A DNA stretch of 64,000 nt from positions 221,194 through 285,193 of the forward strand of contig NZ_FNBL01000002.1 of the NCBI RefSeq assembly GCF_900102315.1, written 5' to 3'. This stretch comes from Celeribacter baekdonensis (GTDB lineage: Bacteria; Pseudomonadota; Alphaproteobacteria; Rhodobacterales; Rhodobacteraceae). Positions 25,613-41,238 of this stretch are shown here, in pieces (positions within the stretch are counted from its first letter, which is position 1; every line of letters begins with the position of its first letter). The position numbers were made by a program, and so were the translations under genes. The notes beneath the pieces are model-generated. The model was not told where the DNA came from and made no database searches. It was given only the letters and a program-made list of their open reading frames with translations.

Positions 25613-25805
25613 GTGATTTGGGTCCCGATCTGCTCTTTTCTTTATCTGTCTGTCGTTTTACCCATGGGAGAGAGGGCCGCAAGGCCAGTTGCGGTGAAAC
25701 CGCTTCACTTATTTTGACGCCACATTACAGCGATGCGCGACAGTTTGCCAAAGCGGGGTGAACAGGTCGGAGTTGCGACAGCAAAAAGAGACACAGGGAG
25801 AGACC

Positions 25806-26471
25806 ATGCGCACGGTGATTTTCGATCTCGACGGCACCTTGGCGGACACCTCCGCCGATCTGATCGCCTCCGCCAATGCCTGTTTTCGCGGGCTCGGTCA
25901 TGGCGATGTGTTGGACCCTGTGGCGGATGCGTCCACCGCCTTTCACGGTGGCCGCGCGATGCTCACGCTTGGGTTCTCGCGGGTTCAGCCGGGATTTTCC
26001 GAGGCCGATGTGATGGCGCAATATCCGCTTTTGCTGGCGGCTTATGGCGAGGCGATTGATGTGCACACCATGCTTTATCCCGGCGCGGTTGCCGCGATTG
26101 AGGGTTTGAAATCAAAGGGCTACGCGGTGGGCATCTGTACCAACAAGCCCGAAGATCTGGCGGATCGTTTGCTCACACGTTTGGGGGTGCGCGATTTGTT
26201 TGCCTCGATGATTGGCGCCAAAACGGTGGGGGTCTCGAAACCCGATCCCAAACCGTATCTTGCCGCTGTGACAGAGGCGGGCGGGGTCTTGGCGCAGAGC
26301 TTTTTGGTGGGGGACACCGACACGGATCGCAAAACGGCGCGGGCCGCAGGCGTGCCCTGCGCGTTGGTGACCTTTGGCCCGGATGGGGAGGGGGTGCGCG
26401 AGTTGGCGCCTGAGGCGCTGTTGCATCACTATGATGATCTGGCCCGCGTGACACAGGAGTTGATCGGATGA
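25806..26471 (+). CDS. Phosphoglycolate phosphatase-like HAD hydrolase
   Basis: A 221-residue HAD-IA phosphatase. Motif I is FDLDGTLADTSADLI with the nucleophilic Asp, motif II CTNKPEDL, motif III VSKPDPKPYL and motif IV VGDTDTDRKTARAAG. These match phosphoglycolate phosphatase (Gph), which removes 2-phosphoglycolate made by DNA repair or Rubisco, though other HAD substrates are possible. The ATG at 25806 has GGGAGAG upstream. Its stop overlaps the next start by four bases. Confidence 0.88.
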   Translation: MRTVIFDLDGTLADTSADLIASANACFRGLGHGDVLDPVADASTAFHGGRAMLTLGFSRVQPGFSEADVMAQYPLLLAAYGEAIDVHTMLYPGAVAAIEGLKSKGYAVGICTNKPEDLADRLLTRLGVRDLFASMIGAKTVGVSKPDPKPYLAAVTEAGGVLAQSFLVGDTDTDRKTARAAGVPCALVTFGPDGEGVRELAPEALLHHYDDLARVTQELIG

Positions 26472-27670
26472 CATCTGAGGTCTTTACCGGAAATTTCACT
26501 CAACAAGAGCCGATCCCGGAGGCGGCGATTGAGGCCGCGGTGGCGGTGATGCGTTCGGGACGGCTGCATCGTTACAACACTTTGCCGGGGGAGACGGGCG
26601 AGGTGGCGCTTTTGGAGGCGGAGTTTGCCGCCTTCACCGGGGCAAGATACGCACTCGCCGTGGCCTCCGGCGGTTATGCTTTGGGCTGTGCCCTGCGCGC
26701 GCTTGAGGTGCAGCCGGGGGAGCCGGTTTTGACCAATGCGTTTACCTTGGCCCCCGTGCCCGGCGCGATTGCCTCTGTCGGGGCGCGTCCGGTGTTTGTC
26801 GGCGTCACCGAGGGGTTGGTGATTGATCTCGATGATCTTCAGGTGAAAATCTCGGAGAGCGGGGCCAAGGTTTTGATGCTGTCGCATATGCGCGGGCATA
26901 TCGCGGATATGGATGCGCTGATGTATATCTGTAACGGCGCGGGCGTGGCGGTGATTGAAGATTGCGCGCATACGATGGGCGCGGCTTGGGATGGGGTGCC
27001 CTCGGGGCGGCACGGGATCATCGGTTGCTATTCGACCCAGACCTATAAACACATCAATTCGGGGGAGGGCGGGTTGCTCGTCACCGATGAGGATGAAATC
27101 GCGGCGCGCGCCATCATGTTGTCCGGTTCGTACATGTTGTACCCCAAACATACCGCCGCTCCGCCGGCTGAAATGTTCGAAAAGGTCAAATATGACACGC
27201 CGAATGTCTCGGGTCGAATGGACCATTTGCGGGCGGCGATATTGCGGGTGCAGTTGCGAAACCTGACCTCTCAGGTGGACAAGTGGAACGCGCGCTACCG
27301 GGTGGTTGAGGACGGGCTGGCGGATGTGCCGGGACTGACGCGAATTGTGCGGCCGCAACAAGAAAGCTTTGTCGGCTCGTCGATCCAATTCCTTTTGCTT
27401 GATTGGCCCGATGCCAAAATCGAAGCGGTGGTGGCGGGATGCGGCAGGCGCGGTGTGGATTTGAAATGGTTTGGCGCGGCGGAGCCGGTGGCCTTTACCT
27501 CGCGCTATGATTCATGGCGCTACGCTGATCCTCAGCCTTTGCCCGACAGTGATCGGGTGTTGCGGGCGATTGTGGATATGCGCCTGCCTTTGACCTTTTC
27601 GCTTGCGGATTGCGCGACACTGGCGCGGATCATTCGCGATGAGGTGGCGGCGGTCGCAGAGCGCACTTAG
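26468..27670 (+). CDS. DegT/DnrJ/EryC1/StrS-family aminotransferase
   Basis: A 400-residue PLP-dependent enzyme with the fold type I layout of sugar aminotransferases. The lysine that forms the Schiff base is expected in STQTYKHINSGEGG, where Gly-Glu-Gly-Gly follows as in the family. Other family elements are EDCAHTMGAAWDG and the C-terminal PLTFSLADCATLARII. Coupled by an ATGA overlap to the HAD gene. No nucleotide-sugar genes are adjacent, so the substrate and pathway are unknown. Confidence 0.85.
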   Translation: MTSEVFTGNFTQQEPIPEAAIEAAVAVMRSGRLHRYNTLPGETGEVALLEAEFAAFTGARYALAVASGGYALGCALRALEVQPGEPVLTNAFTLAPVPGAIASVGARPVFVGVTEGLVIDLDDLQVKISESGAKVLMLSHMRGHIADMDALMYICNGAGVAVIEDCAHTMGAAWDGVPSGRHGIIGCYSTQTYKHINSGEGGLLVTDEDEIAARAIMLSGSYMLYPKHTAAPPAEMFEKVKYDTPNVSGRMDHLRAAILRVQLRNLTSQVDKWNARYRVVEDGLADVPGLTRIVRPQQESFVGSSIQFLLLDWPDAKIEAVVAGCGRRGVDLKWFGAAEPVAFTSRYDSWRYADPQPLPDSDRVLRAIVDMRLPLTFSLADCATLARIIRDEVAAVAERT

Positions 27671-27979
27671 GCGGTCACATCATATAGAGGTGGGGCACTC
27701 TCTATCTTTCTGGAGGGGATGCGGCCTTTATGTCTGAGTAAAACGATAAGGTAAAGCGCTTCGAATCGCGCGCAAGCTGAATTTCCCGCCACAAATCGCC
27801 CCAAGCCGCATTTCGATCAAAAAAACTTGTCAGCGGCCTCGAAACAAAGGGCTTTCTCCACCTCGGTTCGGTTGACCCCTCTGCCACAGAGGGCTAAACC
27901 ACGACAAGCTAGCATTGCCGCGCGCCCGAGGTCGCTCCACTTTCAGAGACCTGCAAGCGCGCCTATCAAGGAGCCGCAC
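27671..27979 (+). promoter_or_regulatory. Leader region of the nuo operon
   Basis: A 309-bp gap before nuoA that has no coding signal. It contains a perfect 7-bp hairpin, CCCTCTG at 27877-27883 and CAGAGGG at 27887-27893 around CCA, placed between a TTGACC (27872-27877) and a TAAACC (27895-27900) that are 17 bases apart and could be weak -35 and -10 boxes. The promoter of the whole respiratory block is expected here. An operator or leader structure is a plausible reading for the hairpin. Confidence 0.5.
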
Positions 27980-28345
27980 GTGGACGTTTTGCTTCGGGAC
28001 TACCTCCCCATCGTCATCTTCCTTGGCCTCGCCATTGCGCTGGGTCTTGTGTTTATTTTCGCCGCCCTCATCATTGCCGTACGCAACCCGGACCCGGAAA
28101 AGGTGTCGGCCTATGAATGTGGCTTTAACGCCTTTGACGACGCGCGGATGAAGTTCGACGTCAGGTTCTACCTTGTGTCGATCCTGTTCATCATTTTTGA
28201 CCTCGAAATCGCCTTTCTCTTTCCCTGGGCCGTCGCCTTTAAGGATCTGAGCATGACCGGCTTTTGGTCGATGATGGTGTTCTTGGGCGTTCTGACCGTG
28301 GGCTTTGCCTACGAATGGAAGAAAGGGGCGCTGGAATGGGCGTGA
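27980..28345 (+). CDS. nuoA: NADH-quinone oxidoreductase subunit A
   Basis: A 121-residue membrane subunit of complex I, with three hydrophobic helices. The [20 protein letters not shown] loop is the diagnostic segment of NuoA. A GTG start at 27980 is chosen because AAGGAG lies six bases upstream and the family similarity begins there ([14 protein letters not shown]); the frame is open 150 bases further upstream without resemblance. First gene of the nuo operon. Confidence 0.96.
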
Positions 28346-28869
28346 TGACCTCTGCAAATACCGCGGGCGTGGACAAAGAGAATTCCACCCAAGTGCTGAA
28401 CAAAGAGCTTCAGGACAAAGGCTTTCTGTTGACCTCGACCGAGGATCTCATCAACTGGGCGCGCACCGGTTCGCTACACTGGATGACCTTTGGTTTGGCC
28501 TGTTGCGCCGTTGAGATGATGCACACCTCAATGCCGCGCTATGACCTTGAGCGTTACGGCACAGCACCGCGCGCCTCTCCGCGTCAGTCTGATTTGATGA
28601 TCGTTGCGGGCACCCTGACCAATAAAATGGCCCCGGCGCTGCGCAAGGTGTATGACCAGATGCCAGAGCCGCGCTATGTGATTTCCATGGGCTCCTGCGC
28701 CAATGGCGGCGGCTATTATCATTATAGCTATTCGGTTGTACGTGGCTGTGACCGCATTGTGCCCGTCGACATTTATGTCCCGGGCTGCCCGCCGACCGCT
28801 GAGGCGTTGATGTATGGCATCCTTCAGTTGCAACGCAAAATGCGCCGCACTGGCACGATTGCGCGCTAA
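28336..28869 (+). CDS. nuoB: NADH-quinone oxidoreductase subunit B
   Basis: A 177-residue subunit that holds the terminal [4Fe-4S] cluster N2 next to the quinone site. The cysteines are visible in [11 protein letters not shown] (adjacent pair), [10 protein letters not shown] and [11 protein letters not shown]. The start at 28336 overlaps nuoA by ten bases and has GGGG seven bases upstream; ATG at 28345 is also possible. It contacts NuoD and NuoI. Confidence 0.96.
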
Positions 28870-28880
28870 GGAGATTGATG

Positions 28881-29480
28881 ATGAGCGAAGCCCTTCAAGA
28901 ACTCGGCGCCCATATTGAATTGAAACGCCCGGAGGATGTGCTCTCGACCGAGATCACCTTTGGCGAATTGACGATCACGGTGACACCGGCGGGGATTGTG
29001 GATTTCGTGGAGTTTTTGCAACTCGACGGCACCTGCAAATTCTCCTCGCTGGTGGACATCACCGCGGTGGATCACCCGAGCCGCGAGGCGCGGTTTGACG
29101 TGGTTTATCACTTCCTGTCGATGTACCAAAACCACCGCATCCGGATCAAAACGGCCGTGCGCGAAGATGAGACGATCCCCTCGATCATCTCCGTTCACCC
29201 TTCGGCAGGTTGGTTCGAGCGCGAAGTGTTCGACATGTTTGGGATCATTTTCTCCGGTCACCCGGATCTGCGTCGCATCCTGACGGACTACGGTTTCCGT
29301 GGTTACCCGCTGCGCAAGGATTTCCCAACCACCGGCTACACCGAAGTGCGCTATGACGATGAACTCAAGCGCGTGGTCTATGAGCCGGTGTCTCTGGTTC
29401 AGGAATATCGCCAGTTTGACAACCTTTCTCCGTGGGAAGGGGCCAAATACATCCTTCCCGGTGATGAGAAGGGAGCATGA
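28881..29480 (+). CDS. nuoC: NADH-quinone oxidoreductase subunit C
   Basis: A 199-residue peripheral subunit (30-kDa family), separate from NuoD as in most alphaproteobacteria. The signature [11 protein letters not shown]-type region reads [20 protein letters not shown], followed by [17 protein letters not shown] at 28881 is chosen because AGGAG ends seven bases before it; ATG at 28878 and TTG at 28875 also lie in frame. The next gene is a sulfotransferase, not nuoD. Confidence 0.95.
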
Positions 29481-29481
29481 C

Positions 29482-30378
29482 GTGAGCGGCGATCCGGCGA
29501 TTATGATATGTGCGGGAGCGACGAAAGCGGGCACCAGCTCGCTTTACCGCTATTTGCTCGATCACCCGGACGTCTATGCGCGGTCCATTAAAGAGATTCA
29601 CTATTTCGACACGGTGGACTTTGATACTTATCAGTATCAGTTGAAAACCTTAGCTCGACGGCGGGCCGATCTCGAACGGCAACTGGCCGCGGCCGAAGCT
29701 GATCTGGATGTGTGGAAAAGCCTGAATATTCAACGCCAGATTGCCGATGTGGCCGCCGTGATGAGCATGTTGGAGCGTGGTGAAGACGGGGTGGAAGAGT
29801 ATCTCGCTTACCTTCTGGAGGGACTCGACGAGCGCAAAGTTGCTTGTGACATCACGCCTGGCTATGCGCTTTTGTCCGAGGAGCGGCTGCGACGGATGGC
29901 GCAAATGGCGCCCGATGTTCGCTTTGTCTTTTTGATGCGTGACCCGGTGGGGCGGTTGTGGTCGCATGTGCGTATGCAGGCGATACACCAGCTACAGCCC
30001 GGTGAACAAATCTCAGATAAGGCGCACCGGATCATGAACCGCGTCGTGAAACAAGGGCTTGAAACCCAAATTACGTCACGTGGCGATTACGTGGCGATCG
30101 CGGAAAAGCTCAAACGCGCGGTCCCCGAAGACAAGCTTTTGGTGGGCTTTACCGAAGACCTTTTGACGGGCGAGGGGCTTAAGACGCTCTGCGCCTTTTT
30201 GGGGATTGCGGAGAAACCCGTGAAAAAAGAACTGCGTGCCCATCAGGGCGTGAAACTGCAACTGAGTGACAAGCAGCGGCGTGAAGCGGCGGAATTTCTG
30301 GCCCCGCAATACGCCTATGTGGAAAAGACATTTGGCCAGCTGCCTTCCCGGTGGCAGGCGAATATGGCGAGGATCTGA
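29482..30378 (+). CDS. Sulfotransferase-family protein inside the nuo operon
   Basis: A 298-residue protein with the two PAPS-binding signatures of P-loop sulfotransferases: ICAGATKAGTSSLYRYL (lysine at 15) for the 5'-phosphosulfate, and FVFLMRDPVGRLWSHV (R153 to S161) for the 3'-phosphate. A helical, coiled-coil-like insert lies at about residues 54-95. The start is a GTG at 29482, with GGGAG six bases upstream; nuoC ends one base before it, and nuoD starts directly after the stop. No signal peptide or membrane helix is seen. The acceptor is unknown. This is not a standard complex I gene. Confidence 0.82.
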   Translation: MSGDPAIMICAGATKAGTSSLYRYLLDHPDVYARSIKEIHYFDTVDFDTYQYQLKTLARRRADLERQLAAAEADLDVWKSLNIQRQIADVAAVMSMLERGEDGVEEYLAYLLEGLDERKVACDITPGYALLSEERLRRMAQMAPDVRFVFLMRDPVGRLWSHVRMQAIHQLQPGEQISDKAHRIMNRVVKQGLETQITSRGDYVAIAEKLKRAVPEDKLLVGFTEDLLTGEGLKTLCAFLGIAEKPVKKELRAHQGVKLQLSDKQRREAAEFLAPQYAYVEKTFGQLPSRWQANMARI

Positions 30379-31623
30379 ATGATGGACGGCGACATCCGGC
30401 AAAATACCTATGATGATGGTTCGCGGGACGCCCAACCGGGCGAACAAAAGATCCGCAATTTCAACATCAACTTTGGCCCCCAACACCCGGCTGCGCACGG
30501 CGTGTTGCGGATGGTGCTTGAGCTTGATGGTGAGATTGTGGAACGCGCCGACCCGCATATTGGGTTGTTGCACCGCGGCACCGAAAAGCTGATGGAAAGC
30601 CGCACCTATTTGCAAAACCTGCCGTATCTCGACCGCCTCGACTATGTGGCGCCGATGAATCAGGAACATGCATGGTGCTTGGCGATCGAGCGTCTCGCAG
30701 GTGTCGAAATCCCGCGACGCGCTTCGCTCATCCGGGTGCTTTATTCCGAGATTGGCCGCGTGCTCAACCACCTGTTGAACACCACCACCGGCGCGATGGA
30801 TGTGGGCGCTTTGACGCCGCCGCTTTGGGGCTTTGAAGAGCGCGAAAAGCTGATGATCTTTTACGAGCGCGCCTGTGGTGCGCGTCTGCACTCCGCCTAT
30901 TTCCGCCCCGGCGGCGTGCATCAGGACCTGCCGCCGGAGCTTTTGGTGGATATTGACGCCTGGGCCGATCACTTCCCGAAAATTTTGGACGACATCCATT
31001 ACCTGCTGACGGAAAACCGGATTTTCAAACAGCGGACCGTGGATATTGGTGTGATCTGCGAACAAGAGGCGCTGGATTGGGGCTTTTCCGGTGTGATGGT
31101 GCGCGGCTCTGGCATGGCGTGGGATTTGCGCCGGGCACAGCCATACGAATGCTATGACGAATTCGATTTCCAAATTCCGGTCGGCACCAATGGCGATTGC
31201 TATGATCGTTACCTGTGCCGGATGCAGGAAATGTACGAGTCGACCAAGATCATCAAACAGGCAGTGGCCCTGCTGCAATTGCCGGAAAACCAAGGCGATG
31301 TTTTGGCGCGCGGCAAATTGACTCCACCAAAGCGGGCTGAGATGAAAACCTCGATGGAGGCGCTCATCCACCACTTCAAACTCTACACCGAGGGTTTCAA
31401 ATTGCCCGAGGGCGAAGTGTATGCCGCCGTCGAAGCGCCCAAAGGCGAATTCGGGGTCTATATGGTCTCGGACGGCACCAACAAACCCTACCGCGCCAAA
31501 CTGCGCGCGCCCGGCTATCTACATTTGCAGGCGATGGATCATATGGCGAAAGGTCACCAATTGGCTGACGTCTCCGCTCTCATCGCCACCATGGACATCG
31601 TGTTTGGGGAGGTCGACCGCTAA
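30379..31623 (+). CDS. nuoD: NADH-quinone oxidoreductase subunit D
   Basis: The 414-residue 49-kDa-type subunit that forms the quinone-binding pocket with NuoB. The segment [21 protein letters not shown] is the family signature, with the quinone-site histidine in [19 protein letters not shown] and [17 protein letters not shown] are also conserved. It starts right after the sulfotransferase stop, and its TAA overlaps the nuoE ATG by one base. Confidence 0.97.
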
Positions 31624-32753
31624 TGCTGCGCCGTCTTTATCATGAACAACCGGCCTCTTTCGCATTCACCCCGGCAAACCTTGCCTGGGCCGAGGGCCAA
31701 ATCGCGAAATATCCCGAAGGGCGTCAGGCCTCTGCGGTCATCCCGCTGTTGTGGCGGGCGCAGGAACAGACCGGTTGGTTGACCAAACCGGCGCTGGAAA
31801 CGGTCGCGGATATGTTGGGCATGCCCTATATTCGCGTGCTCGAAGTCGCGACCTTCTATTTCATGTTCCAACTCGCGCCCGTGGGTTCGGTGGCGCATAT
31901 TCAGGTCTGTGGCACCACCACCTGTATGATTTGTGGCTCTGGCGACATCATCTCTGTGTGCAAAGAAAAAATCTCTCCCAAACCGCACACGGTCTCTGCC
32001 GATGGCAAGTTTTCGTGGGAAGAGGTCGAATGTCTGGGCGCTTGCGCCAACGCGCCAATGGCTCAGATCGGCAAAGACTATTATGAAGACCTGACGGCGG
32101 AGAATTTCTCCAAACTCTTGGACGACATGGCCGCTGGCAACGTGCCGCTTCCCGGCTCTCAAACTGGCCGTTTCTCCTCTGAGCCTGCGGGTGAATTGGT
32201 GACTTTGGCCGAGTACAAAGGCACGGGCACACAGTACAACGGCTCCGTGCAGCGCGCAGTGGACATTGGCGACACGATCAAACGCATCGACGGCACAGAA
32301 GTGCCGCTGTTGACGCCGTGGATTTCCAAAGGCGGATCAAAACCGACCCCGCCGAAACCCGCAGCACCGGCGAAATCCGCCGTGCAACAGGTGGCCGAGG
32401 CGAAGAGGGCGGCCCCGAAAGCTGCGCCGAAAGACGTTGCGCCTAAGGTTGACGCCGCTGCGGCAGACGCGCCCGCGCAAAAGAAACCCCGCACCATGAA
32501 AGCCCCGCGCAAAGCCGGGGCCGATGATCTCAAGATGCTCAAAGGTGTGGGCCCGAAATTGGAAGAAACGTTGAATGCCATGGGATTCTGGCATTTCGAC
32601 CAAATTGCCAAATGGACCGCTGAGGAAATTGAATGGGTCGATGAAAACCTGAAATTCAAAGGCCGCATTGCGCGCGACGGTTGGGTCGATCAAGCCAAGA
32701 TTTTGGCGGCAGGCGGCAGCACCGAGTTTTCCAAACGCGCCAAATACGACTGA
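31623..32753 (+). CDS. nuoE: NADH-quinone oxidoreductase subunit E with C-terminal extension
   Basis: The [2Fe-2S] subunit of the NADH-oxidising module. Cluster ligands are C96, C101, C137 and C141 (VCGTTTC and CLGAC). At 376 residues it is about twice the E. coli length. The extra part comprises an Ala/Pro/Lys-rich linker (about 240-300) and a helix-hairpin-helix-like domain at 301-376, beginning [17 protein letters not shown] and ending in [17 protein letters not shown]. The same domain ends the next gene product. The extension is shared with other Rhodobacteraceae as far as I know. Confidence 0.95.
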
Positions 32754-32812
32754 CCTAAGAGGCCAAAAGGCCCGTATGGTATTGAACCAACAGGGATTAA
32801 AGGAGCGATGCG

Positions 32813-33532
32813 ATGACTGAGACGACTTCGGGGAAAACCCTTAAGATTGGGCTGATTTCAGCCATCATAGGCGTTTTGGCCTTTATGGCGCTGTTGTGGA
32901 TTGCGGGCTATTCCACGGCGGCCTCTTTGATCGTTGGCGTTCTTGTGGCGCTTTTGGTGGCGATCCTGTTGTGGATCGGCTGGTATGAGGACACGGAGAC
33001 TGAGGACACGCAGACAATGCGTTCCGTGGACAACGGTCATCCTGAGGCGGATGTGACCACGGCTGGCCTGATGGCGGCGACTTCCGTGGGCGATGAACCG
33101 ATGTCTGCGGCACCGGAGATTGCGGTGGAGCATCACGCGGCGGACACGCGCGAGGTCCGTTCAGCCGCGGCGGCCGCCTCGGAACGGGCAAGGCCTGTTG
33201 CGGATGAGCCTGCGGTTGAAACTGTGGCCGAAACGGTCGTTGAGCCAGTCGCAGAGACCGTGGCCGAGGTGGCTGTTGCTGGCGATGGTGCGGATGACCT
33301 GAAAGCGATCAAAGGCGTGGGGCCGAAGATCGAGGTGCAACTGCATGAACGTGGCATCGTGACCTTCGCCCAGGTTGCGGCCTTGAGTGCCGCCGAGATC
33401 GAAGAACTGGGGGCGGCACTCAAAGGCACCTCGGCGGCACAGCTGAGCAAATGGGCCGAACAGGCCAAAATCCTTGCCGCAGGCGGCGAGACAGAGTTTT
33501 CGAAACGCGTCCAAAAGGGCGACGTCTACTAA
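32813..33532 (+). CDS. Membrane protein with C-terminal helix-hairpin-helix-like domain
   Basis: A 239-residue protein with two N-terminal membrane helices (about 10-30 and 35-57), an acidic and Ala/Val/Glu-rich linker, and a C-terminal domain at 161-239 that is clearly paralogous to the NuoE tail: DDLKAIKGVGPKIEVQL at the front and [17 protein letters not shown] at the end. Located between nuoE and nuoF. It may anchor or position the NADH module at the membrane, but that is inference. AGGAGCG precedes the ATG. Confidence 0.8.
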   Translation: MTETTSGKTLKIGLISAIIGVLAFMALLWIAGYSTAASLIVGVLVALLVAILLWIGWYEDTETEDTQTMRSVDNGHPEADVTTAGLMAATSVGDEPMSAAPEIAVEHHAADTREVRSAAAAASERARPVADEPAVETVAETVVEPVAETVAEVAVAGDGADDLKAIKGVGPKIEVQLHERGIVTFAQVAALSAAEIEELGAALKGTSAAQLSKWAEQAKILAAGGETEFSKRVQKGDVY

Positions 33533-33541
33533 GGAAGAAAT

Positions 33542-33763
33542 ATGGCCCCCGATAAAGACCAAGCATTGGCGAAGAAGGCACGGATGGTCTCCGTGGTGAT
33601 CGCCGTGACGATGCTGGTGTGGCTCGGGGCGCAATGGTTGGGTGGGAAATTCGCGATGCAAACGCGTTTCGTTTTTCTCCTCGATCTGGCAGCGCTCGCG
33701 GCATTTGTCTGGGCGTTTGTGGTGATTTATCAGATCTGGCGCGACCGGCGTCAGCAGGACTGA
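33542..33763 (+). CDS. DUF5337-type small membrane protein
   Basis: A 73-residue protein with two hydrophobic helices (about 15-33 and 43-64) and charged ends ([15 protein letters not shown]). It resembles the DUF5337 family found in nuo clusters of Rhodobacteraceae. It follows the previous gene by nine bases and precedes nuoF by 13, so it belongs to the same transcript. Role unknown; a small accessory membrane subunit or assembly factor is conceivable. Confidence 0.75.
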
Positions 33764-33776
33764 AGGGACGAGAGCT

Positions 33777-35072
33777 ATGCTCAAGGATCAGGATCGGATC
33801 TTTACCAACCTCTACGGCATGAATGACCGTAGCCTTGCGGGCGCGCAAAAGCGTGGCCACTGGGATGGCACGGCTGGCATCATGGCCAATGGCCGGGATT
33901 GGATCATCGACCAGATGAAGGCCTCCGGCCTGCGGGGTCGTGGCGGTGCGGGTTTCCCGACGGGTCTCAAATGGTCGTTTATGCCGAAAGAGTCCGACGG
34001 GCGTCCGGCCTATTTGGTCATCAACGCCGATGAATCCGAACCCGCGACCTGTAAGGACCGCGAAATCATGCGTCACGACCCGCATACGCTGGTCGAAGGT
34101 GCGCTGATCGCCGGGTTCGCCATGGGCGCTTGTGCCGCGTATATCTACATTCGCGGCGAATATATCCGCGAACGTGAGGCGCTTCAGGCGGCGATTGATG
34201 AAGCCTATGATGCCGGTCTGATCGGTCGCAATGCCTGCAAATCCGGCTATGATTTCGACGTCTACCTGCACCACGGGGCAGGGGCCTATATCTGTGGTGA
34301 AGAAACCGCGTTGCTCGAAAGCCTTGAGGGCAAAAAGGGCATGCCGCGGATGAAACCGCCCTTCCCGGCGGGCGCGGGTCTTTATGGGTGCCCGACCACA
34401 GTGAACAACGTGGAATCAATTGCCGTTGTCCCGACCATTCTGCGGCGCGGCGCGGAGTGGTTCTCGTCCTTTGGACGTCCGAACAACGTTGGCACCAAAT
34501 TGTTTGCCCTCACCGGCCACGTCAACACCCCTTGCGTGTTCGAGGACTCGATGTCCATGCCGGTGCGCGAGTTGATCGAACGCCACGGTGGTGGCATTCG
34601 CGGCGGTTGGGACAATCTCAAAGCCATCATTCCGGGTGGGGCGTCCTGCCCGATCTTGCCGAAAGATGCGCTTGACGGCGCGATCATGGATTTCGACTGG
34701 ATGCGGGAGAATAAATCCTCTTTCGGCACCGGCTGTATGATCATCATGGACAACTCTGTCGATGTGATCAAAGCCGTGTGGCGCTTGGCGTCGTTTTTCA
34801 AACACGAGAGCTGTGGTCAATGTACGCCCTGCCGCGAAGGCACGGGTTGGATGATGCGCGTCATGGATCGTTTGGTGACGGGTGATGCGGAGATCGAAGA
34901 GATCGACATGTTGCTTGATGTCACGAAACAGGTCGAAGGCCACACCATTTGTGCGCTTGGCGACGCCGCCGCCTGGCCGATCCAAGGTCTCATCCGCCAC
35001 TACCGCGAAGAGATCGAAGACCGGATTAAAGCCAAGAAAACCGGGCGCATGGGCGCCATGGCGGCGGAGTAA
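33777..35072 (+). CDS. nuoF: NADH-quinone oxidoreductase subunit F
   Basis: The 431-residue NADH-binding subunit with FMN and cluster N3. NADH/FMN loops are seen in [18 protein letters not shown] and [16 protein letters not shown]; the [4Fe-4S] ligands are in [12 protein letters not shown] and [10 protein letters not shown]. Length agrees with the family. It follows the DUF5337 gene and is separated from nuoG by four accessory genes. Confidence 0.97.
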
Positions 35073-35465: not shown

Positions 35466-35963
35466 ATGACCTCGACCCACCATATCGGAGAACTCAACGT
35501 TGGGCGTCTTATCGCGCCCACCGATGATCCGCGCGTGGCGGAGTTCATGGGCGCGCTGGACCGGATCAACGGGCTTGGCAAACGGATGCCGGGTTTCGTG
35601 TGGATGATGGAGGGCTCGGGCGAACCGGGCACTGGAAACACCGAAACCGCCATCGGCGGAGATGCGCAATTCGTCTCCAACCTGACCGTGTGGGAAGATG
35701 TCCAATCTTTGGAAAACTTCGTCTTTAATACGGTCCACAAACAATTTTATGACCGCCGCCAAGAGTGGTTTGAGATCATGGGCAAACAGCATTTTGTGAT
35801 GTGGTTTGTCGAGAAAGGGCACAAGCCCACATTGGACGAGGCGCTCGAACGCCTTGCCTACAAAGACACACATGGGGACAGCGACCATGCCTTTGGCTGG
35901 TCGTATCTGACGCAGGCCACGCTTTTCAAAACGAAAAGCTGTCGGCCCATAGCCGCGGAGTGA
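35466..35963 (+). CDS. DUF3291 family protein
   Basis: A 165-residue cytosolic protein of the DUF3291 family, likely a dimeric alpha/beta-barrel like antibiotic-monooxygenase folds. Typical segments are LNVGRLIAPTDDPRVAEF, SNLTVWEDVQSLENFVF and HFVMWFVEKGHKPTLDEALE. No catalytic role is established for the family. It lies between nuoF and nuoG in the same transcript; whether it relates to complex I or is a passenger gene is open. Confidence 0.82.
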   Translation: MTSTHHIGELNVGRLIAPTDDPRVAEFMGALDRINGLGKRMPGFVWMMEGSGEPGTGNTETAIGGDAQFVSNLTVWEDVQSLENFVFNTVHKQFYDRRQEWFEIMGKQHFVMWFVEKGHKPTLDEALERLAYKDTHGDSDHAFGWSYLTQATLFKTKSCRPIAAE

Positions 35964-35967
35964 CCCG

Positions 35968-36393
35968 ATGACATCTTTCAAACATATCGCTTTTGCCTTT
36001 GCCTTGATCGCGGGGCCCATGATCGCTGGACCTGTGGCCGCAGCCGATCTGCCGCCTCTGCGCGAGGTCAAAGAGATTGACCAAAACATGCTTTGGGCAG
36101 GGCTCGCGATTGAGGTCGCGGATGAATGCCCGACCATCGACGTGAAGAAAATGAAAGGCCTGTCCTTTCTGTGGGGGCTGAAAAACAGAGCCTCCGCCCT
36201 GGGCTATTCGGACGATGAAATCCGCGCCTATGTCGATAGCGACGCCGAAGAGGCGCGCATTCGCGACCTTGGAACCGCCTATATTCGCGCCTCTGGCTTT
36301 GACCCGACCACATCGGAGGGGCTTTGTGCCTTTGGCGCATCGGAGATTGCACGCGGCTCGATCATTGGGTCATTTTTGAAGGACAAATCATGA
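35968..36393 (+). CDS. DUF5333 family exported protein (copy 1)
   Basis: A 141-residue protein with a signal peptide ending near VAAAD (residue 26-27). Two cysteines are conserved with the following gene: one in DECPTID and one in the C-terminal GLCAFGASEIARGSIIG. The family is typical of Rhodobacteraceae nuo clusters and has no known function. It overlaps the next start by four bases. Confidence 0.78.
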   Translation: MTSFKHIAFAFALIAGPMIAGPVAAADLPPLREVKEIDQNMLWAGLAIEVADECPTIDVKKMKGLSFLWGLKNRASALGYSDDEIRAYVDSDAEEARIRDLGTAYIRASGFDPTTSEGLCAFGASEIARGSIIGSFLKDKS

Positions 36394-40830: not shown

Positions 40831-41238
40831 ATGAATGATTTCACCAAACTTTTCGCAGAGATGATTGAGCAAAGCCAAAAGATGGCCGCCTCTTTCAATC
40901 CGGCTTTGGAAAATTTCCAGATGCCGGCGTTCGACAAACTGTTCCCGACCATGTCGAAGGAACAGTTGGAAATGTTTTGGGGAAATGCGTTCAACAAGGA
41001 CGGCTTGGATGCCAAAACCCGCCTGCTCGTCGTGCTTGCCGGGCAAACGGTTTTGGGAGCTCAGGCCGAGGTTCCGTTTAAAATGACCGTGCGCCACGCG
41101 ATACAAGCGGGGGCTACACAAAAGGAGATCGCGGAAGTGATCTATCAAATGTCGATGTTGGGCGGTGTGCCCGCAATGTCAAAGGCACTGGAGTTGGCGC
41201 AGGCCGTCTTCTCCGAGACGCAGGAGGGCAGTGAATGA
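40831..41238 (+). CDS. Carboxymuconolactone decarboxylase-like protein
   Basis: A 135-residue protein with the CMD/AhpD-like helical fold, judged from [17 protein letters not shown] and [20 protein letters not shown]. The redox CxxC pair of AhpD is absent, so peroxidase activity is unlikely; it looks like the decarboxylase branch or a non-enzymatic relative. It lies between nuoI and nuoJ and is coupled to nuoJ by a four-base overlap. Its link to respiration is not evident. Confidence 0.75.

Follow-up and report, generated by a model that had tools for sequence, protein, structure and literature searches.

The nuo operon of Celeribacter baekdonensis carries an intact gene for a PAPS-type sulfotransferase (ST) between nuoC and nuoD, an arrangement that recurs in 17 of 20 Celeribacter genomes and in 52 of 162 genera of the family and is therefore not due to chance. 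On balance, ST is probably a functional, cytosolic, PAPS-dependent enzyme of the carbohydrate type with a surface glycan as its substrate, carried as exchangeable cargo in a nuoC-nuoD slot and not forming part of complex I. The evidence comes from the gene and its neighbours in the window (the whole 64,000-nucleotide stretch of DNA that was analysed), from the occupancy of the junction across the family, and from the selection and phylogeny of the nuo-linked STs.

The sulfotransferase gene and its nuo neighbours

Pfam matches name nuoA, nuoB, nuoC, nuoD, nuoE and nuoF around ST in the window (Table 1), and the ST reading frame is intact with no internal stop. The nuoC stop codon TGA occupies 29478-29480 and the single base 29481 separates it from the ST GTG, with the ST stop TGA (30376-30378) followed without a gap by the ATG of nuoD, in agreement with the initial annotation, which described a gene wedged one base after nuoC and directly against nuoD. 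A Shine-Dalgarno-like GAGAAGGGAG lies in the 3′ end of nuoC 6-7 bases 5′ of the ST GTG, and GAGAAGG is found at the same position in 9/9 named Celeribacter loci. ST is probably cotranscribed with its neighbours. A scan of 27500-32900, uninformative for this organism, returned 0 sigma-70-like promoters against 2.7 expected and 12 terminator-like sites against 6.2 expected. The + strand has three of these terminator-like sites, and one falls within ST (30174-30190). The base composition of ST (GC 0.56, GC3 0.64) is close to that of nuoB-nuoE (GC3 0.65-0.71) and thus gives no indication of a recent foreign origin.

Directly upstream of nuoA, at 25758-27670 and in the same place in 9/9 named Celeribacter loci, are genes of the HAD and DegT/DnrJ/EryC1 families. 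The DegT/DnrJ/EryC1 family includes many sugar aminotransferases, and a link of these two genes to sugar metabolism is possible. The nuo cluster of the window also holds DUF3291, DUF5333 and carboxymuconolactone-decarboxylase-family genes (35466-36393 and 40831-41238).

Table 1. Features of the nuoA-nuoF region in the window
Feature	Position	Strand	Basis and remarks
nuoA	27827..28345	+	Pfam; as listed, Pfam match from residue 74 only
nuoB	28264..28869	+	Pfam; as listed, nuoA+nuoB stretch 27827..28869
nuoC, 5′ flank of slot	28875..29480	+	Pfam; ORF as listed, from TTG
PAPS-type sulfotransferase (ST; Sulfotransfer_3)	29482..30378	+	Pfam, motifs, profile; GTG start, 298 aa
nuoD, 3′ flank of slot	30379..31623	+	Pfam
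nuoE, accessory HHH_5 protein (32813-33532) and nuoF	31623..35072	+	Pfam

Protein family and predicted chemistry

ST matched Sulfotransfer_3 (PF13469) at 2.1e-7 with 31.9 bits, above the curated cut-off of 27, and Sulfotransfer_4 at 1.1e-6, likewise above its cut-off. In an alignment of 58 nuo-linked STs the PAPS loop is kept at K15 (53/57 rows), G17 (55/57) and T18 (57/57), and R153 and S161 are both invariant (58/58), so that the first assignment of the gene as a PAPS-type sulfotransferase is borne out by Pfam and by both PAPS motifs. We take the loop lysine to bind the 5′-phosphosulfate and R153 and S161 to be the arginine and serine that bind the 3′-phosphate. E38, kept in 57/57 rows, is presumably the catalytic base glutamate of carbohydrate-type sulfotransferases, and at the C-terminus P288 and W291 are retained in 58/58 rows of the nuo-linked clade.

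The window protein and 39 relatives, taken from named loci, were combined into a profile, which matched 3rnl (7e-36), heparan 3-O-sulfotransferases (2.5e-25 to 1.5e-20) and NDST (1.7e-16), with human-type SULTs at 1e-11 or weaker in the same search; other kinds of sulfotransferase (5x2b, CurM) were matched as well. The segment of ST around E38, KEIHYFD, aligns with EIHFFD of 3-OST-5. Homology therefore points to a carbohydrate-type (heparan 3-O-sulfotransferase-like) enzyme. On reading, the protein sequence has neither an evident membrane segment nor an evident signal peptide, and the product is likely to be cytosolic. An APS kinase match in the source genome makes a supply of PAPS for ST likely. 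Such matches occur in 184 of 198 family genomes, the 14 genomes lacking one including the ST-bearing G019, G068 and G160, and being so widespread they provide no phylogenetic-profile signal for ST.

Relatives of ST encoded outside the slot were compared by their surroundings, with neighbours examined in 7 of the 19 off-slot loci fetched. A close relative (L202) lies with genes for an ABC transporter ATPase, a nucleotidyltransferase and a GT2 protein, and L205 adjoins a sub-threshold GT61. L201 has uvrB and a pectate-lyase-like protein nearby, L204 an RTX protein, L206 an acyltransferase and L208 a LysR regulator, and the neighbour of L203 has no Pfam match; apart from the pectate-lyase-like protein no clear glycan gene was found beside these five. 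Taking together the profile matches, the off-slot neighbours and the DegT/DnrJ/EryC1 gene, a glycan is the favoured acceptor. L203, L204 and L205 are ST relatives fused to alpha/beta-hydrolase domains, L203 and L205 also having a weak Sulfotransfer_2 match.

Occurrence and occupants of the nuoC-nuoD junction

The named loci closest to the window are those of Celeribacter, with ST 92% and nuoD 99% identical in C. baekdonensis B30. ST lies between nuoC and nuoD in 9/9 named Celeribacter loci and in all 17 genomes of the genus set that carry it. One of the three genomes without ST (85% complete) shows no nuoD either, and in the other two, out of 19 having nuoD, the junction measures 185 and 222 bp. 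Celeribacter litoreus and G537 carry a second, distant ST between nuoB and nuoC (L178:3443-4387; L246:1474-2319) besides that between nuoC and nuoD. In three loci (L243-L245; G542, G539 and G540) ST and nuoD are in one frame with a single TAG between them (L243 and L244 read directly), such that read-through would yield an ST-NuoD fusion.

Across the family, the junction was scored in 162 genomes with nuoC and nuoD on one locus, one per genus, out of 198; in the other 36, nuoC or nuoD was either absent from the matches listed, encoded on a separate contig or not found. An intact ST occupies the junction in 52 genera, a broken ST in 2 (L151 and L081, re-read from initial ST calls) and neither in 108, in a set enriched in ST carriers by the 30 loci that were chosen for their ST. 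At loci chosen by nuoC and nuoD alone, an ST match was found in the gap in 46 of 131, one of them the remnant in G089. Confinement to one or a few strains, which the initial annotation held would make a functional link to the operon unlikely, is thus not what the spread within the family revealed.

Any ST match at E <= 1e-3 was found in 101 of the 198 genomes, generic sulfotransferases included. Matches of at least 150 bits numbered 50. All but one of them (49) are found between nuoC and nuoD, 5′ of nuoD, counting G196, in which the contig begins inside ST with nuoC out of view, and G131, in which a small membrane protein stands between ST and nuoD. The lone exception, G039 (L201), has its ST elsewhere, in a stretch with uvrB. 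Nuo-linked STs outside the 162 genomes are those of G162 and G184, those of G061, G196 and G021, which are cut by contig ends, and that of G448 from a draw across the class. In that draw of 337 genomes, four outside the family matched at E <= 1e-15, and none of nuoA-nuoF was found in the 3-4 kb fetched around each match. G070, scored for an NTF2-like protein among the 162, has an ST between nuoB and nuoC, and G120 a distant ST, divergently oriented, upstream of nuoA. In G184 (L168, L166) nuoC and ST are ~927 kb from nuoD, the nuo cluster being split at or near the slot.

Tight spacing is general. Among the 39 single-ST genera examined, and taking the nearest in-frame start, which leans to short spacing, the ST start is -4 to +8 nt from the nuoC stop in 30 of the 35 measurable and the nuoD start is no more than 4 nt from the ST stop in 31 of 32, extending the coupling geometry first noted in the window.

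The 108 genera lacking ST have a small membrane protein (32 genera; 26 alone, 6 with an NTF2-like protein), a Lumazine_bd_2/NTF2-like protein alone (5), a GFA protein (6), other sequence of more than 100 bp, such as a FlK-like thioesterase gene (14), or an empty junction of no more than 100 bp (51), the cargo classes being identified from one representative each against Pfam. The small protein or a GFA protein accompanies an intact ST in the slot of 12 genera, two of which carry two STs. In this ST-enriched set no other single cargo is as frequent as ST. Gaps of more than 150 bp were found at nuoC-nuoD in 106/162 and at nuoB-nuoC in 6/160; nuoD-nuoE was enlarged in 39 of 110 measured, with 42 further loci having no nuoE in reach, and thus the nuoC-nuoD slot is not the sole variable junction.

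In 44/162 genera, whatever the cargo, nuoC is followed by a small protein that is hydrophobic and two-helix-like, has about 55-78 aa and bears a motif like KLLPHFGI(N/H) (e.g. L034, L053, L079, L092). One representative had no Pfam or NCBIfam match, and no convincing match to the protein was found in the genome of the window. It could be an undescribed accessory protein.

Selection, loss and allele replacement

The ST protein is under purifying selection. Its dN/dS was 0.04-0.24 across 30 Celeribacter pairs having a nuoD dS of less than 0.6, and the relaxed selection that the initial annotation had named as an argument against a functional link was not found. Taken with the near-invariant catalytic residues, these values indicate that it is the enzyme that is selected, and ST is likely to be active. 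In 27 of the 30 pairs ST dS was 0.6-1.7 times nuoD dS, as expected if ST is inherited with the operon; in one pair the ratio was 2.3 and in two pairs involving G533 it was 3.2 and 3.4. Between G533 and the window, dS was 0.26, 0.41 and 0.36 for nuoB, nuoC and nuoD and 1.24 for ST, with the drop in identity confined to ST and a return to 99-100% at 30301-30500, which is most readily explained by replacement of the ST allele in a near sister species; no donor was found for it. This one clear case suggests recombination through the flanking genes. The three pairs among G539, G540 and G542 are outside the 30, since the nuoD match ran over the stop, and were recomputed separately: for G539-G540, an ordinary pair, dS was 0.36 for ST and 0.22 for nuoD; for G542 against G539 and G540 it was 1.15-1.38 for ST, 0.44-0.51 for nuoD and 0.98-1.07 for nuoC. 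Replacement in G542 is ambiguous because the synonymous divergence of nuoC nearly equals that of ST.

Loss of ST in place was seen in three genomes. In G066 the remains are pieces in two frames, and in G089 a C-terminal remnant of ~80 residues is matched by tblastn at 48 bits and by the profile at only 10 bits. G541 is not among the profile matches listed, and short collinear matches to the ST of related species remain in it (lowest E 3.8e-5, where 200 shuffles gave 0.009 at best), with the last bases of ST kept beside nuoD.

Such remnants, together with unrelated alternative cargo and a patchy distribution requiring at least 38 changes in ST presence on a weakly resolved nuoC+nuoD tree (162 rows), would also be expected were ST a pure hitchhiker of little benefit at an insertion-tolerant junction, a coupled insert being hard to remove without harm to the translation of nuoD. 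The retention of the last ST bases in G541 fits that explanation. It is nevertheless unlikely, given that the low dN/dS and the conserved catalytic residues show the protein itself to be selected.

Phylogeny of the nuo-linked sulfotransferases

In a tree with 31 outside STs, the nuo-linked STs fall in a separate family clade (SH-aLRT 96) that contains 16 non-nuo family rows. An inner clade with support of 98 has 69 of 76 rows nuo-linked or from Celeribacter, and a further inner clade of 58 rows with support of 92 has 57 such rows and one from elsewhere. The tree includes L030 and L141 but no other row shorter than 200 aa, and two long fusion rows were trimmed for it; five long-branch joins were flagged. 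The second ST of C. litoreus and several copies in tandem or outside the slot have deep branches, tandem and B-C slot copies stand apart from the main clade, and the nuo-labelled L083 and divergent L159 are outside the inner clade.

It is conceivable that different sulfotransferases were captured repeatedly and independently at this one junction, in place of a single old insertion. Mantel correlations between ST and nuo distances were -0.08 and -0.10 (Pearson; tree and raw distances), against 0.22-0.30 for nuoC-nuoD, which is evidence against a simple vertical descent of ST; of the 13 ST groupings with support, 9 are contradicted by a supported nuo grouping, and the tandem and B-C slot copies outside the main clade are what separate captures would leave. 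With node-count distances, however, the ST-nuo correlation was 0.20 (0/2000 permutations), against 0.25 for nuoC-nuoD. Moreover, of the 8 nuoC groupings with support, 5 are contradicted by a supported nuoD grouping. The AU test rejected the nuo tree with the ST data, yet the nuoC data reject the nuoD tree, and the nuoD data the nuoC tree, with about the strength shown against the ST tree, so that the conflict between the ST and nuo trees is uninformative. With the 58-row clade almost wholly nuo-linked, repeated capture appears improbable and the insertion of ST in the nuo operon looks old.

A possible respiratory role

In a further explanation ST acts on the respiratory chain, whether on a quinone, a complex I-bound lipid or a complex I subunit, its place in the operon reflecting its function as might be envisaged from the mycobacterial enzyme Stf3. 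The 49/50 loyalty of the closest homologues to the slot could be read as such a functional tie, and the tight coupling in most genera measured, the persistence of ST beside nuoC in G184 and the related STs between nuoB and nuoC in G070 and C. litoreus are all in its favour. However, 108 of the 162 genera have neither ST nor a remnant scored at the junction, 2 of the 19 Celeribacter genomes with nuoD do without it, and elsewhere unrelated genes fill the slot; among the 30 best loci, ST in those of other genera is 33-49% identical to the window ST, against about 80-86% for nuoD. This explanation is accordingly given a low probability, and the specific proposal that ST sulfates a quinone, bound lipid or subunit with the maker encoded inside the complex I operon, from which about a third of the sampled family genera would have a sulfated electron-transport component, a lower one still. 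A respiratory function is possible and less likely than carriage as cargo with coupled expression. ST is not a subunit of complex I, as the initial annotation also held, nor a supernumerary one, for Pfam and PDB searches matched sulfotransferases only, with no homology to a known subunit and no NCBIfam match, and two thirds or so of genera with nuoC and nuoD have no intact copy in the slot.

Proposed role of the slot and its cargo

ST gives the impression of a beneficial gene carried along by the operon and not of a component of the respiratory complex. Under this preferred explanation the nuoC-nuoD junction would be an accessory-gene slot of the family with ST as one of its cargoes. Cargo in the slot would be translated by coupling with nuoC and nuoD, giving constant production, and the conserved nuoC and nuoD flanks would supply homology for the exchange of alleles between species, or for loss. 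ST itself would most likely move sulfate onto a sugar hydroxyl of a surface polysaccharide or glycolipid precursor. Both an old insertion held in the operon and modification of a surface component, as initially suggested, fit best with these data, and a specific functional link to respiration is not supported, given the many genera without ST, its loss in place and the unrelated cargo.

A literature search on ST in nuo operons or in these bacteria and on nuo gene order, in which subscription journals were partly covered, found no ST between nuoC and nuoD. The nuo operon dealt with in one report is that of a production strain, unrelated to the ST case (PMC6731281). A core respiratory operon serving as a stable, family-wide landing place for exchangeable accessory enzymes would clearly exemplify the carriage of cargo by a highly conserved operon. 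The nuoC-nuoD ST also offers an easily found and widely distributed marker for a clade of sulfotransferases, and cautions that location in a nuo operon is no proof of a respiratory role.

Comparison with known systems

The nuo/nqo clusters of Rhodobacter and Paracoccus carry accessory reading frames and, as here, non-subunit genes are scattered in alphaproteobacterial nuo clusters; they are not known to have a sulfotransferase gene between nuoC and nuoD. Stf3 of mycobacteria, the sulfomenaquinone enzyme, is a bacterial sulfotransferase with a respiratory substrate and is not known to be encoded in a nuo operon. Among characterised enzymes the best profile matches are the heparan sulfate 3-O-sulfotransferases and NDST, which in animals take part in making heparan; they have the EIH(F/Y)FD segment in common with ST, and their similarity to it is low. 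Closest in kind are the solved protein 3rnl and the bacterial Sulfotransfer_3 proteins, which resemble ST in the GA.K.GT PAPS loop, in KE.H(F/Y)F and R(D/N)PV.R..S and in length, with the nuo-linked clade set apart from them by P288 and W291 and by its location in a respiratory operon.
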